Below are positions 1,564-32,901 of a stretch of 47,562 bases of DNA, in pieces. The notes below the pieces were generated by a model. It searched no databases and was not told where the DNA came from. It saw only the letters and a program-made list of their open reading frames with translations. The stretch lies in the NCBI GenBank assembly GCA_016194585.1, contig JACQBG010000025.1, positions 1 through 47,562 on the forward strand, in the 5' to 3' direction. Positions within the stretch are counted from its first letter, which is position 1, and each line of letters begins with the position of its first letter. The DNA comes from Gemmatimonadota bacterium (GTDB lineage Bacteria > Gemmatimonadota > Gemmatimonadetes > Gemmatimonadales > Gemmatimonadaceae). Position numbers and translations under genes: made by a program.

Positions 1564-2568
1564 TCAGCCCGTGATGGCGCGCAGGTACTCCTCGCAGTTG
1601 CGGATGCCGTAGGCCATCGTGCTCCACCGCTTGTCGGGGAGCGACACGGGGGCGCGTTCGGCGAGCACCCAACGGCTCACCTCGTCGGCGCGCGCGGGCA
1701 CGAAGGAAGCGCGCGCCACCTCCACGCGCACGAGCCCGAAGAACGGGTCCATCCCCGCCGCGCCGCGCAGCCGCAGGTACCAGCTCGCGACCACCGTCCG
1801 CCGCGGCGAACGGATCTCGAAGGCGCTCGTGCGCTCCCCCTCGCCGAGCGCGAGCACGACGCCGAGCGCGTCGCCGGCCGCATAGAGCGTGCGATGCGAC
1901 TTCACGATGCCCACGGCGGCGTCCGATCGCGACGCCGTGCCGCTCGACGCGATGCCGCCGTCGACGTAGAGCGGGCCGTCGCCGTGCGCCACCCACGATT
2001 CGGCGAGCCCCGTCTCGAGCAGCTCACGCCGCCGTTGCACGGCGGTGCGGGCCACGGCGAGCAGCTCGGCCGGATGGCGCGCGCCGTGCGCGGCGTCGCC
2101 GTCGAGCGTATCGATGACGGGGATGTTCGCGTCGACGAGCGCCGCCACGCGTTCGTCGCCGGCCAGCGACGCGGGGAGATAGACCGAGCGGTCGACTCGC
2201 GGTGCGCGCCAGGTCGTGAGCTCACCGTCCCTGCGGCATCGCACGACCGCGGCGACGATGCCGTGCACGATCGGCACGCCGTCGTTCCAGCGGCCGACGA
2301 CGCGACTCACCTGCACGCCATCGAGGAACGCCGAGAAGCCGACGGTCGGCTCTCCCGGGACGCGCTGCGCCGCGAGCGCGCCCCCTTCGATGGGGATCGC
2401 CGCCTCGAGGCGCGGCGGGTCGGCGTCGAGCGGCGTCAACTCGAGCGGGCGTTCGCCACCGGGCGCCGACGCCGTCGGCGCCCCGACACCGGCGGCCAGG
2501 CGACGCAGCAGGCGCGCGACGTCCTGCGCGCTTGCTCCATCGAGCGCGCCGTCATATGATGGCGGCAT
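1564..2568 (-). CDS. nurA: NurA-type nuclease
   Basis: 334 aa. NurA is a Mn-dependent 5'-3' nuclease that acts with HerA on DNA ends. Support is a short N-terminal LDG (Asp83), a strand with YVDGGI (Asp203) and GIVKSHRTLY (Lys223, His225), which match the spacing of metal-binding and conserved residues in NurA, plus the downstream HerA-type gene. The C-terminus ends IRNCEEYLRAITG. Its ATG (CAT at 2566-2568) shares bases with the start of the divergent lipoprotein gene. A GAGG sequence seven bases upstream is a plausible ribosome site and lies inside that gene's coding sequence, so the message must begin within it. Family membership rests on motifs and context, because NurA sequences diverge strongly. 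Confidence 0.75.
   Translation of the reverse strand: MPPSYDGALDGASAQDVARLLRRLAAGVGAPTASAPGGERPLELTPLDADPPRLEAAIPIEGGALAAQRVPGEPTVGFSAFLDGVQVSRVVGRWNDGVPIVHGIVAAVVRCRRDGELTTWRAPRVDRSVYLPASLAGDERVAALVDANIPVIDTLDGDAAHGARHPAELLAVARTAVQRRRELLETGLAESWVAHGDGPLYVDGGIASSGTASRSDAAVGIVKSHRTLYAAGDALGVVLALGEGERTSAFEIRSPRRTVVASWYLRLRGAAGMDPFFGLVRVEVARASFVPARADEVSRWVLAERAPVSLPDKRWSTMAYGIRNCEEYLRAITG
2555..2560 (+). promoter_or_regulatory. -10 hexamer of a likely leaderless promoter
   Basis: TATGAT lies exactly six bases before the ATG at 2567. A TTGCTC sequence 17 bases further upstream (2532-2537) could be the -35. Transcription would start at or next to the start codon. The promoter sits inside the first codons of nurA on the other strand. 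Confidence 0.55.
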
Positions 2569-3571
2569 GGTGCCGCCTCGGAGTCGCTCGCCGTTCGCGT
2601 CGATCATCGTGCTGGGCATCCTAGCGTTCGCCGCCGGGTGCGACAAGGACGCGGCGCGACGCGAGGCCGCGCAGGTCGTGCGCCCCGTGGGCACCCCCGC
2701 GATCAACATCTTCCATCGGCCGACGCTGCTGTTCCAGGTGTACGGCGACCGCGCCGACCCGCGGGTGCTGCCGGTGGCCGCGATGATCGACAGCACGGTG
2801 GTCGCGATCGGCCTCAACGAATACGGTTGGCACGCCCTCGACTCGCTGTACTTCGCGCCCGGCACGACGCTGTCGCTCTATCACGGCGGACAGCCCACCG
2901 GCCGTGCGACGATCACGCGCGGCATGTGGACGAAGGACGGCGCGCTGCAGACGCTCCCCGGCTGCTCCGCGATGCGGCCGCTGGCCGCGGCGACGTTGCT
3001 GACGGCCGGACTCGACGCCGATTCCGCCGTCGAGCTGCTCGCGACCAGCGCCCCGCTCACGACGCGCCCCGCCTCGCGCGAGTCGTTCCCGTCGCGCGAC
3101 GTGCTCAAGGTCGGCCGCGCGCTGGGGGTCGACGTGGCGACCCACCACGGGCTCGCGGCGGAGGACCTCGATTCGCTCGAATTCAGCGCGAAGGCCATCT
3201 CCACCGGCGCCACGGGGGGGCTGACCGTCGTCGCGTCGTTCCTCGATGCCGGCGCGGGCGACCTCGGGCCCGGCGCCGGACACTCCACGAGCGTGCTCGT
3301 GCTGGGCGAGCAGGTCGACGGCGCCTGGCAGCCGACGTACCGCCACGCGTCGAGCGGCGACGCGCGCACCGTGGAGTTCCAGCGGTACCTCGACCACCTC
3401 GATCTCGACGGCGACGGCATCGACGAAGTGCTGCTCGAAGCCTGGCGCTACGCCGGCGGCAACGAGCTCGTGATACTCCGGTTCAAGGCCGGACAGTGGC
3501 ACGAAGCGCTGCGGGTCCCGCTCGGTTGGTGCCTCGACTCGCCGAAGACGAGTGGGAGGGCAAGGCCCTAG
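2567..3571 (+). CDS. Lipoprotein of unknown function with an acidic DxDGDG loop
   Basis: 334 aa. The N-terminus has basic residues, a hydrophobic stretch and the lipobox FAAGC (Cys25), so it is an exported, lipid-anchored protein. The middle shows no family I recognise. Near the C-terminus, DLDGDGIDEVLLE (Asp279 onward) resembles the calcium loops of FG-GAP/VCBS repeats, followed by a beta-rich tail. The ATG at 2567 is chosen because the signal peptide begins there and a -10-like TATGAT ends six bases upstream; no Shine-Dalgarno is visible. Start bases overlap those of nurA on the opposite strand. The last six codons and the stop lie inside the left arm of the GTGGGA inverted repeat, so the C-terminal SGRARP appears to be repeat-derived. 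Confidence 0.8.
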   Translation: MVPPRSRSPFASIIVLGILAFAAGCDKDAARREAAQVVRPVGTPAINIFHRPTLLFQVYGDRADPRVLPVAAMIDSTVVAIGLNEYGWHALDSLYFAPGTTLSLYHGGQPTGRATITRGMWTKDGALQTLPGCSAMRPLAAATLLTAGLDADSAVELLATSAPLTTRPASRESFPSRDVLKVGRALGVDVATHHGLAAEDLDSLEFSAKAISTGATGGLTVVASFLDAGAGDLGPGAGHSTSVLVLGEQVDGAWQPTYRHASSGDARTVEFQRYLDHLDLDGDGIDEVLLEAWRYAGGNELVILRFKAGQWHEALRVPLGWCLDSPKTSGRARP

Positions 3572-3738
3572 CGGGGGAGGTCGAGTGGGAGTGGGAGCCG
3601 AGTGGGAGTGGGACGGGCTCGCACTGCCGTGGGAGTGGGAGTGGGAGTGGGAGTGCGAGTGGGAGTCGGAGGCCGTCCCACTCCCACTAGCCTCCCACTC
3701 ACACTAGACCTCCCCCGCCCGCCCCTTGCCCTCCCACT
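3551..3738. repeat. 64-bp-arm inverted repeat made of GTGGGA units
   Basis: Left arm 3551-3614 pairs with right arm 3675-3738 without gaps, 56 of 64 positions by my count: 15 perfect pairs (AGTGGGAGGGCAAGG with its complement), six mostly unpaired bases, 11 perfect pairs, then 28 of 32. The 60-base loop is itself GTGGGA repeats plus an inner CTCGCACT/AGTGCGAG pair. One strand is G-tract-rich and could form G-quadruplexes. It separates the convergent lipoprotein and Lrp-like genes, ends three bases from the latter's stop, and probably terminates transcription both ways. Confidence 0.9.
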
Positions 3739-3741
3739 GCC

Positions 3742-4020
3742 CTAAGAGAGCCCGATATCCCACGCTTGCTCAAGATCTTCCTTCGAGTACGCCCGGAACG
3801 CCGTCAGCGTCGTCGTCCGCACGAGCCCCGGCACCTCGGGGAACTGCTCGGTCACGATGCGCGCGATGTCCTCGTACTGCGGCACCTTCACGATCACGAC
3901 GAGGTCCCACTCGCCGCTCACCGAGTAGACGTCGGTGACGCCGTCGAGGCCGGCGAGCTTCTTCGCGCACTGGGGGATGAGGCGCGGCTCCGCCTTCACG
4001 AGCACGATGGTGGTGATCAT
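3742..4020 (-). CDS. Stand-alone Lrp/AsnC effector (RAM) domain protein
   Basis: 92 aa, covering only the ligand-binding, oligomerising RAM domain of Lrp/AsnC regulators (ITTIVLVKAEP start, GVTDVYSVSGEWDLVVIVKV core, TTTLTAFRAYSKEDL end). There is no helix-turn-helix, so it cannot bind DNA by itself. Such single-domain proteins are known to form ring oligomers that bind amino acids and may modulate full-length Lrp partners or act as metabolic sensors. The ATG overlaps the stop of the upstream gene by four bases, indicating translational coupling. The partner gene is unknown, so the ligand cannot be inferred. Confidence 0.88.
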   Translation of the reverse strand: MITTIVLVKAEPRLIPQCAKKLAGLDGVTDVYSVSGEWDLVVIVKVPQYEDIARIVTEQFPEVPGLVRTTTLTAFRAYSKEDLEQAWDIGLS

Positions 4021-24749: not shown

Positions 24750-24857
24750 GCCACGGATCACACAGATCTTAGACGGCGATGGGCACGGATCCTTTCCGAG
24801 GGAGTGCCCTGGAAGGATCCGTGCCCATCGCCCTTCAGCATCCGTGTGATCCGTGGC
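24750..24857. repeat. Dispersed palindromic repeat, copy 1
   Basis: The outer arms GCCACGGATCACAC (24750-24763) and 24844-24857 are perfect complements. The inner arms 24777-24797 and 24811-24830 (core GGGCACGGATCC) pair with a single bulged T. The 13-base spacers between them pair partly. The right flank GATCCGTGGCAAGGCGGTAGG recurs after copy 2 (32762-32865). It sits between two convergent genes (importer operon and POT carrier) and may act as a terminator for both. Confidence 0.9.
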
Positions 24858-32716: not shown

Positions 32717-32761
32717 GACCCGGCCGCCTGCTCCGTTCTTGAGATCGACGACAACAGCTTT

Positions 32762-32865
32762 GCCACGGATGAACGCGGAGAAGAGCGGGATCCACACGGA
32801 TCCTTCCTGGGGAGTCCCCAGAGGCAGATCCGTGCGAATCCCGTTCGATCCGTGAGATCCGTGGC
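32762..32865. repeat. Dispersed palindromic repeat, copy 2
   Basis: Outer arms GCCACGGAT (32762-32770) and ATCCGTGGC (32857-32865). The inner arms, around CGGGATCCACACGGATCC and its near complement, surround a central TGGGGA/TCCCCA hairpin. The flank GATCCGTGGCAAGGCAGTAGG after it matches copy 1 (24750-24857) in 20 of 21 bases. It lies between lipA and pdhA on the same strand. Confidence 0.85.
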
Positions 32866-32901
32866 AAGGCAGTAGGACCCAGCCCAACATCGAGCCCCAG
32901 A

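Follow-up and report, generated by a model that had tools for sequence, protein, structure and literature searches.

A lipoprotein gene in the Gemmatimonadota genome G000 (3.34 Mb, 50 contigs) runs at its 3′ end into a GTGGGA-rich inverted repeat, which extends almost to the convergent neighbouring gene (Table 1). The locus, part of an analysed stretch of 47,562 nucleotides (the window), raises the question of what such a repeat is and how it came to occupy the gap. The original prediction described an array of GTGGGA hexamers folded as an inverted repeat with 64-base arms. It proposed a terminator, a G-quadruplex or a nuclease/recombination site, and regarded the position next to herA-nurA as suggestive. 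This interpretation is partly supported. A recombination site comes closest, but the evidence favours a mobile element that is associated with a gene for an intervening-sequence protein (IVP), the repeat corresponding to the ends of this element. As explanations, terminator, G-quadruplex and herA-nurA are secondary or incidental.

The repeat in the window and its family

The inverted repeat is real, as its best 64-nt arms pair at 56 of 64 bases, against 28–34 in 20 dinucleotide shuffles. The complete arms measure 78 nt each, are separated by 32 nt and are complementary at 66 of 78 positions (85%). The predicted RNA fold of the element reaches −141.9 kcal/mol (z = −8.4) on the forward strand and −144.7 kcal/mol (z = −10.1) on the opposite strand. 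The description as a hexamer array holds for the GTGGGA-rich tail of the arm, which is preceded by about 40 nt of conserved head sequence not built of hexamers; the order is GTGGGAGGGCAAG, six variable bases, GSGGGSGAG(G/A)TCGAGTG and then GTGGGA words. Allowing up to one mismatch, the window contains 10 occurrences of AGTGGGAGTGGGA against an expected 0.06, and every one falls within 3584–3705. The forward strand of the element carries 13 GGG runs, in line with the predicted number of more than ten. An Rfam search of the window gives no match.

Table 1. Features of the repeat in the window, its neighbouring genes and the IVP genes of the same genome
Feature	Position	Strand	Evidence or remarks
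Left arm	3551–3628	+	inverted repeat
Conserved head GTGGGAGGGCAAG of left arm	3552–3564	+	
Left-arm family core	3552–3613	+	97% identity to family consensus, 62 nt
Centre, chiefly GTGGGA words, with inner hairpin	3629–3660		sequence and folds
Right arm, same family	3661–3738	-	inverted repeat
Right-arm family core	3676–3737	-	89% identity to family consensus
Lipoprotein gene; its C-terminal residues TSGRARP and its stop codon are within or adjacent to the element	2567–3571	+	open reading frame
AsnC/Lrp ligand-binding-domain gene, convergent neighbour	3742–4020	-	PF01037, E = 1.2e-13
IVP gene 1 of this genome	C23		bracketed by GTGGGA arms
IVP gene 2 of this genome	C8:107145–110372 (L267)		inverted GGGGGA-word arms, 89 nt, 87% identical
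IVP gene 3 of this genome	C49 (L253)		without arms

Both boundaries of the repeat were placed correctly by the original prediction: the last 20 nt of the lipoprotein reading frame (stop codon at 3571) fall inside the left arm, and the right arm ends three bases from the AsnC-type gene. In congeners the lipoprotein ends in WCLDSPKDKK, WCLDAPKPK or similar, whereas the window gene ends in WCLDSPKTSGRARP. From this comparison, the last residues and the stop codon appear to be derived from the element, the insertion of which changed the end of the lipoprotein. At 188 bp the window copy is too short for an IVP reading frame, and contains none. A HerA-like ATPase gene, truncated by the window start, is located at 1–1548 on the minus strand (NCBIfam HerA, E = 2.6e-4, far below cut-off), while NurA is unconfirmed in Pfam and NCBIfam searches. 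Because the other copies of the element lie elsewhere, this neighbourhood is incidental.

A genome-wide search for similar arrays reveals 32 matches to the 79-nt arm consensus in this genome and 18 in its relative G110. Copies of the family sequence (GTGGGAGGGCAAG-N6-GSGGGSGAGGTCGAGTG...) number about 30 and 18, respectively, and GTGGGAGTGGGA occurs 56 times in the present genome versus 3 times for the reversed control. Among 99 genomes of the taxonomic family, the exact 13-nt head is present in 28 copies here and in at most two in any other genome drawn; three of the latter places were read, and none is an element. In a scan of named genome contigs, the head-plus-core pattern is found only in the uncultured Gemmatimonadetes MAG Kiruna2_bin-1709, which is G110 and belongs to the same genus. 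The two genomes share at least one occupied site, which lies downstream of infA. Contigs C7 (L033) and C30 (L042) of G000 both start inside the same element downstream of infA, where they probably join, the inverted repeat having broken the assembly. For the GTGGGA family the search yielded no empty site; a target duplication was seen neither in the GTGGGA pairs, inspected by eye, nor elsewhere in Gemmatimonadota.

Neighbouring arms of opposite orientation, at most 350 bp apart, face with their heads outward in 42 cases and the other way in none. The 92 sites at which both neighbouring genes were called, with a simple in-house caller, comprise 31 convergent, 39 tandem and 22 divergent gaps; convergent gaps are enriched relative to the background (41 of 268), yet they are not required. 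An orientation-locked 3′-end element, with the arm always sense to the preceding gene, is excluded by this mixture of contexts. The centres of the elements vary by site and frequently contain a GC-rich hairpin.

The AsnC-type gene, present in 17 of 18 congeners, serves as an anchor for locating the orthologous gap. A long inverted repeat occupies this gap in seven genomes and is absent from ten. Its arms are built of different words: GTGGGA here, AGTGGGAGACGGT in G103 and G104, GGGGCGAGACCAG in G101, GATGCAGGGTGCGGAAGAGG in G096, GGCGAATGGCGAG in G105 and GATGCAGAATGCAG in G019. Genus-wide searches with two of these families show that each is dispersed, its principal host genomes containing between 28 and 60 matches. 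The asnC genes of G101 and G096 are 97% identical, yet their gaps carry different word families; at a second site the two genomes have the outer sequence GAACGGCAGGGGCGAG in common and differ inside it. An AAC(G/T)GCAG-like motif recurs, as judged by eye, immediately outside the arms of several families, and related elements are built of words without GGG runs, such as GATGCTG and GGTGTC.

Other repeats were noted in passing. The window contains long intergenic inverted repeats of CCACGGAT(GAACGCGGAT)-type words at 24750–24857 and 32754–32873, with relatives at C46 and C34 of G096. At L031 and L047, hairpins of GTGAGGC words (gaggcgtgaggcggc...gccgcctcacgcctcac) adjoin GTGGGAGTGGGA words and may represent a further family. 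A 72-bp near-perfect palindrome family, GCCGGCGAATT...GATC...AATTCGCCGGC, has at least two copies, at 81177–81248 and 105253–105325 of C46 in G000.

IVP genes between inverted arms

In five genomes, wide arm pairs of 650–830 bp, belonging to a single arm family, each bracket one small PF05635 gene, which encodes the 23S rRNA intervening-sequence protein, a four-helix bundle. The copy so bracketed in the present genome scores above the cut-off of TIGR02436 (four helix bundle protein) as well. One still wider arm pair encloses an IS110 transposase instead of an IVP. Of the 50 IVP loci known from the genus, 39 are enclosed by inverted word arrays, as opposed to 2 of 157 size-matched genes (1/77 and 1/80; Fisher P ∼1e-29), and the arms at each IVP locus are made of its own words. 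The strict inverted-repeat test (E ≤ 1e-6) is failed by 11 of the 50 loci, one of them in this genome. The GGGGGA arm of the C8 locus has four matches genome-wide. A conserved IVP subtype (M-QDYRRLDVWTKAHELVLET) has no flanking inverted repeat in the present genome (L253, on C49), in G103 (L251) or in G104 (L255); these armless genes are perhaps immobile residents.

The repeat load and the number of IVP genes are associated. All genomes with a long inverted repeat in the asnC gap have 3 to 11 IVP genes, and genomes with 0 to 2 have no such repeat there, although the congeners are related and the counts are not independent. Intergenic inverted repeats number 3, 20 and 65 per Mb at 0, 3 and 10 IVP genes, respectively (three genomes of related congeners, partial sequence). 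The strict test is passed by 10 IVP loci from 28 further genomes of the class, and 9 others have weaker word-made inverted repeats.

A single-sequence AlphaFold model of the G110 IVP, of low confidence (pLDDT 68), shows a bundle of helices and matches no PDB entry at E ≤ 0.001; by sequence, the protein is weakly similar to 2gsc, XCC0516 (E = 9e-4). We know of no catalytic motif in IVP. The Y1 transposase family PF01797 is absent from this genome, and no reverse transcriptase of the RVT_1 family (PF00078) is found in it or in the other IVP-rich congeners, except for a single match in G110.

Cyanobacterial plasmid units and empty sites

A tblastn search of plasmids with a Gemmatimonadota IVP retrieves 17 matching records, 16 of which are cyanobacterial. 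Twelve IVP loci were read; clear inverted word arrays are present at nine, and weak or short ones at two more, so that the association of IVP genes with such arrays extends over two phyla. On a plasmid of Nostoc edaphicum the IVP gene is bracketed by arrays of the heptamer TAGGGAG, which we take to be of the published short tandemly repeated repetitive (STRR) type.

In plasmid C of Trichormus variabilis an IVP unit is located between two genes, while three plasmids with 97–99% identical flanks lack it. The empty site reads AAAAAGTAATTAACAAAT and the filled site AAAAAGTAAT-unit-GTAATTAACAAAT, with a 5-bp duplication, GTAAT. This is the only site with a clear target duplication, the other sites being ambiguous or without one. 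Two homologous Nostoc operons contain two different units, which are reciprocally present and absent; one is inserted right at a stop codon, the other at the stop/start overlap of adjacent genes. On a third Nostoc plasmid an IVP gene is interrupted by a gene-less, word-armed copy. Together with the clean presence and absence at orthologous plasmid sites, this implies that whole units, and gene-less forms as well, come and go. As a separate observation, IVP genes are found within CRISPR-cas loci on three cyanobacterial plasmids (L366, L369 and L370), between cas6 and cas4 in two of them and between cas10 and a Cmr3-type gene in the third.

Origin of the repeat and comparison with known elements

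The repeat at 3551–3738 is probably a gene-less, non-autonomous (MITE/REPIN-like) copy of a small mobile GTGGGA IVP element. The full form would consist of an IVP gene (PF05635/TIGR02436) between two inverted arms of degenerate short words. The arms may act as recognition sites for movement, the mover being IVP itself or a partner acting with it, and gene-less copies may be mobilised in trans, in the way proposed for REPINs and RAYTs. Insertion beside stop codons and in intergenic gaps would be tolerated; in the window it would have provided the lipoprotein with a new C-terminal tail and stop codon, and hairpin folding would be a by-product, as would any influence on termination. This reading is based on the ∼30 dispersed copies, the 42:0 heads-outward arrangement and the arms around PF05635 genes in five genomes. 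It draws further on the excess of arrays at IVP loci over controls, the repeat load that tracks IVP number in the asnC gap and per Mb, and the loci found across the class. The cyanobacterial empty sites with the GTAAT duplication, the gene-less copy interrupting an IVP gene, and the occurrence of different families at one gap in sister species also favour it. Counted against it are the lack of an empty site for GTGGGA, of a duplication in Gemmatimonadota, of a catalytic motif and of a reverse transcriptase or transposase partner, together with the 11 loci that fail the strict test. Alternatively, some other process, for example slippage or gene conversion, could create the repeats, with IVP carried along in them or profiting from them.

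If local slippage and hairpin template switching expanded the words and copied one arm to the other, with IVP genes merely tolerating or preferring such sites, arms of degenerate tandem words and a fast turnover of content between sister species would be expected, and both are seen. Such an origin is nevertheless improbable: about 30 unlinked sites share one family, whose conserved head is not repeated, orthologous sites either contain a whole unit or cleanly lack it, and the association with IVP is strong relative to controls. A bidirectional terminator, or a stabiliser of mRNA 3′ ends between convergent genes, under selection for RNA pairing, is likewise unlikely. The very stable fold on both strands, the enrichment of convergent gaps and the frequent GC-rich hairpin in the centres agree with it, but the 39 tandem and 22 divergent sites and the common occurrence of single arms do not, and an intrinsic terminator (GC stem with T tract) is absent from 3480–3800. 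Selection for pairing between the arms finds no support in the GTGGGA family, in which arms of the same site are not more alike than shuffled partners (0.847 versus 0.856, P = 0.78); in family A they are slightly so.

The 13 GGG runs and the intergenic inverted pairs would also suit a G-quadruplex site or a REP/BIME-like host element for nucleoid or gyrase binding that is not related to mobility. That the families are species-specific, that some lack GGG runs, and that congeners with few or no IVP genes have no arms at the asnC gap makes this very unlikely. An assembly artefact at a repeat, which the original prediction had named as a possible refutation, might be suspected from the start of C7 and C30 in one copy and from the presence of N in some G096 copies. 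As a general cause it is highly improbable: the window copy lies away from the contig ends, with unique flanks and two non-identical arms, and the family recurs at many unrelated loci in two species, including the orthologous infA site.

Several known systems resemble the proposed IVP element. Intervening sequences of 23S rRNA with an S23p/IVP reading frame, for instance in Coxiella burnetii, have been described as selfish elements (PMC4990558). They encode the same protein family, and the inverted repeats on either side of the reading frame pair to form a long stem. The present units differ by their location in intergenic DNA and plasmid operons, their arms of tandem words and their many dispersed gene-less copies; all copies read lie between protein genes, and none was seen in 23S rRNA. 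REP/REPIN-RAYT systems (PMC3116915, PMC2817692) likewise comprise dispersed, non-autonomous intergenic repeats, mostly in inverted pairs, with one gene flanked by the same repeats. However, the gene linked here encodes a four-helix-bundle IVP and not a Y1 (HUH) transposase, and the arms are longer (60–100 nt), word-built and not individually palindromic; without PF01797 in this genome, a link to RAYTs is rejected. Like MITEs, the copies are short and gene-less, with inverted ends and a gene-bearing relative in the same genome, and the presence/absence at orthologous sites typical of MITEs is found for the cyanobacterial plasmid IVP units. In contrast to MITEs, searches for Y1 in this genome and RVT_1 genus-wide gave no parent enzyme of a known class for these copies, and target duplication is clear at only one cyanobacterial site. 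Avd of diversity-generating retroelements is related to IVP in fold and family (PMC10053308), but the IVP-rich genomes lack RVT_1, apart from the one match in G110, which argues against a reverse transcriptase acting in trans. The cyanobacterial STRRs are similar in their heptamer-type tandem words in intergenic DNA; they are described as tandem repeats, and the STRR papers found mention neither a link to IVP nor an inverted bracket.

Because the same layout recurs in cyanobacteria, many of the puzzling short repeats of bacteria may be ends of elements of this kind. We tentatively propose, as a possibility that we do not yet favour, that PF05635 proteins are mobility proteins of widespread, unrecognised elements in which neither a transposase of the classical kind nor a reverse transcriptase takes part; the word arrays would be recognition ends, and the cyanobacterial STRR-type repeats and similar soil-bacterial words gene-less copies and remnants. 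Within its incomplete coverage, the literature found contains no link between non-rRNA IVP genes and tandem words and nothing relevant on Gemmatimonad repeats, and the papers found state no cause for tandem word repeats in cyanobacteria or soil bacteria. For the IVP/S23 proteins, which are common, no function is known; a physical link between them and word repeats, with empty sites, would explain both. The link would also make directly testable the older hypothesis of Ralph and McClelland (1993), as cited in PMC4990558, that the reading frame of the intervening sequence is a mobility component. In addition, it would define a pair of non-autonomous and autonomous elements comparable to REPIN and RAYT, but driven by a different protein.
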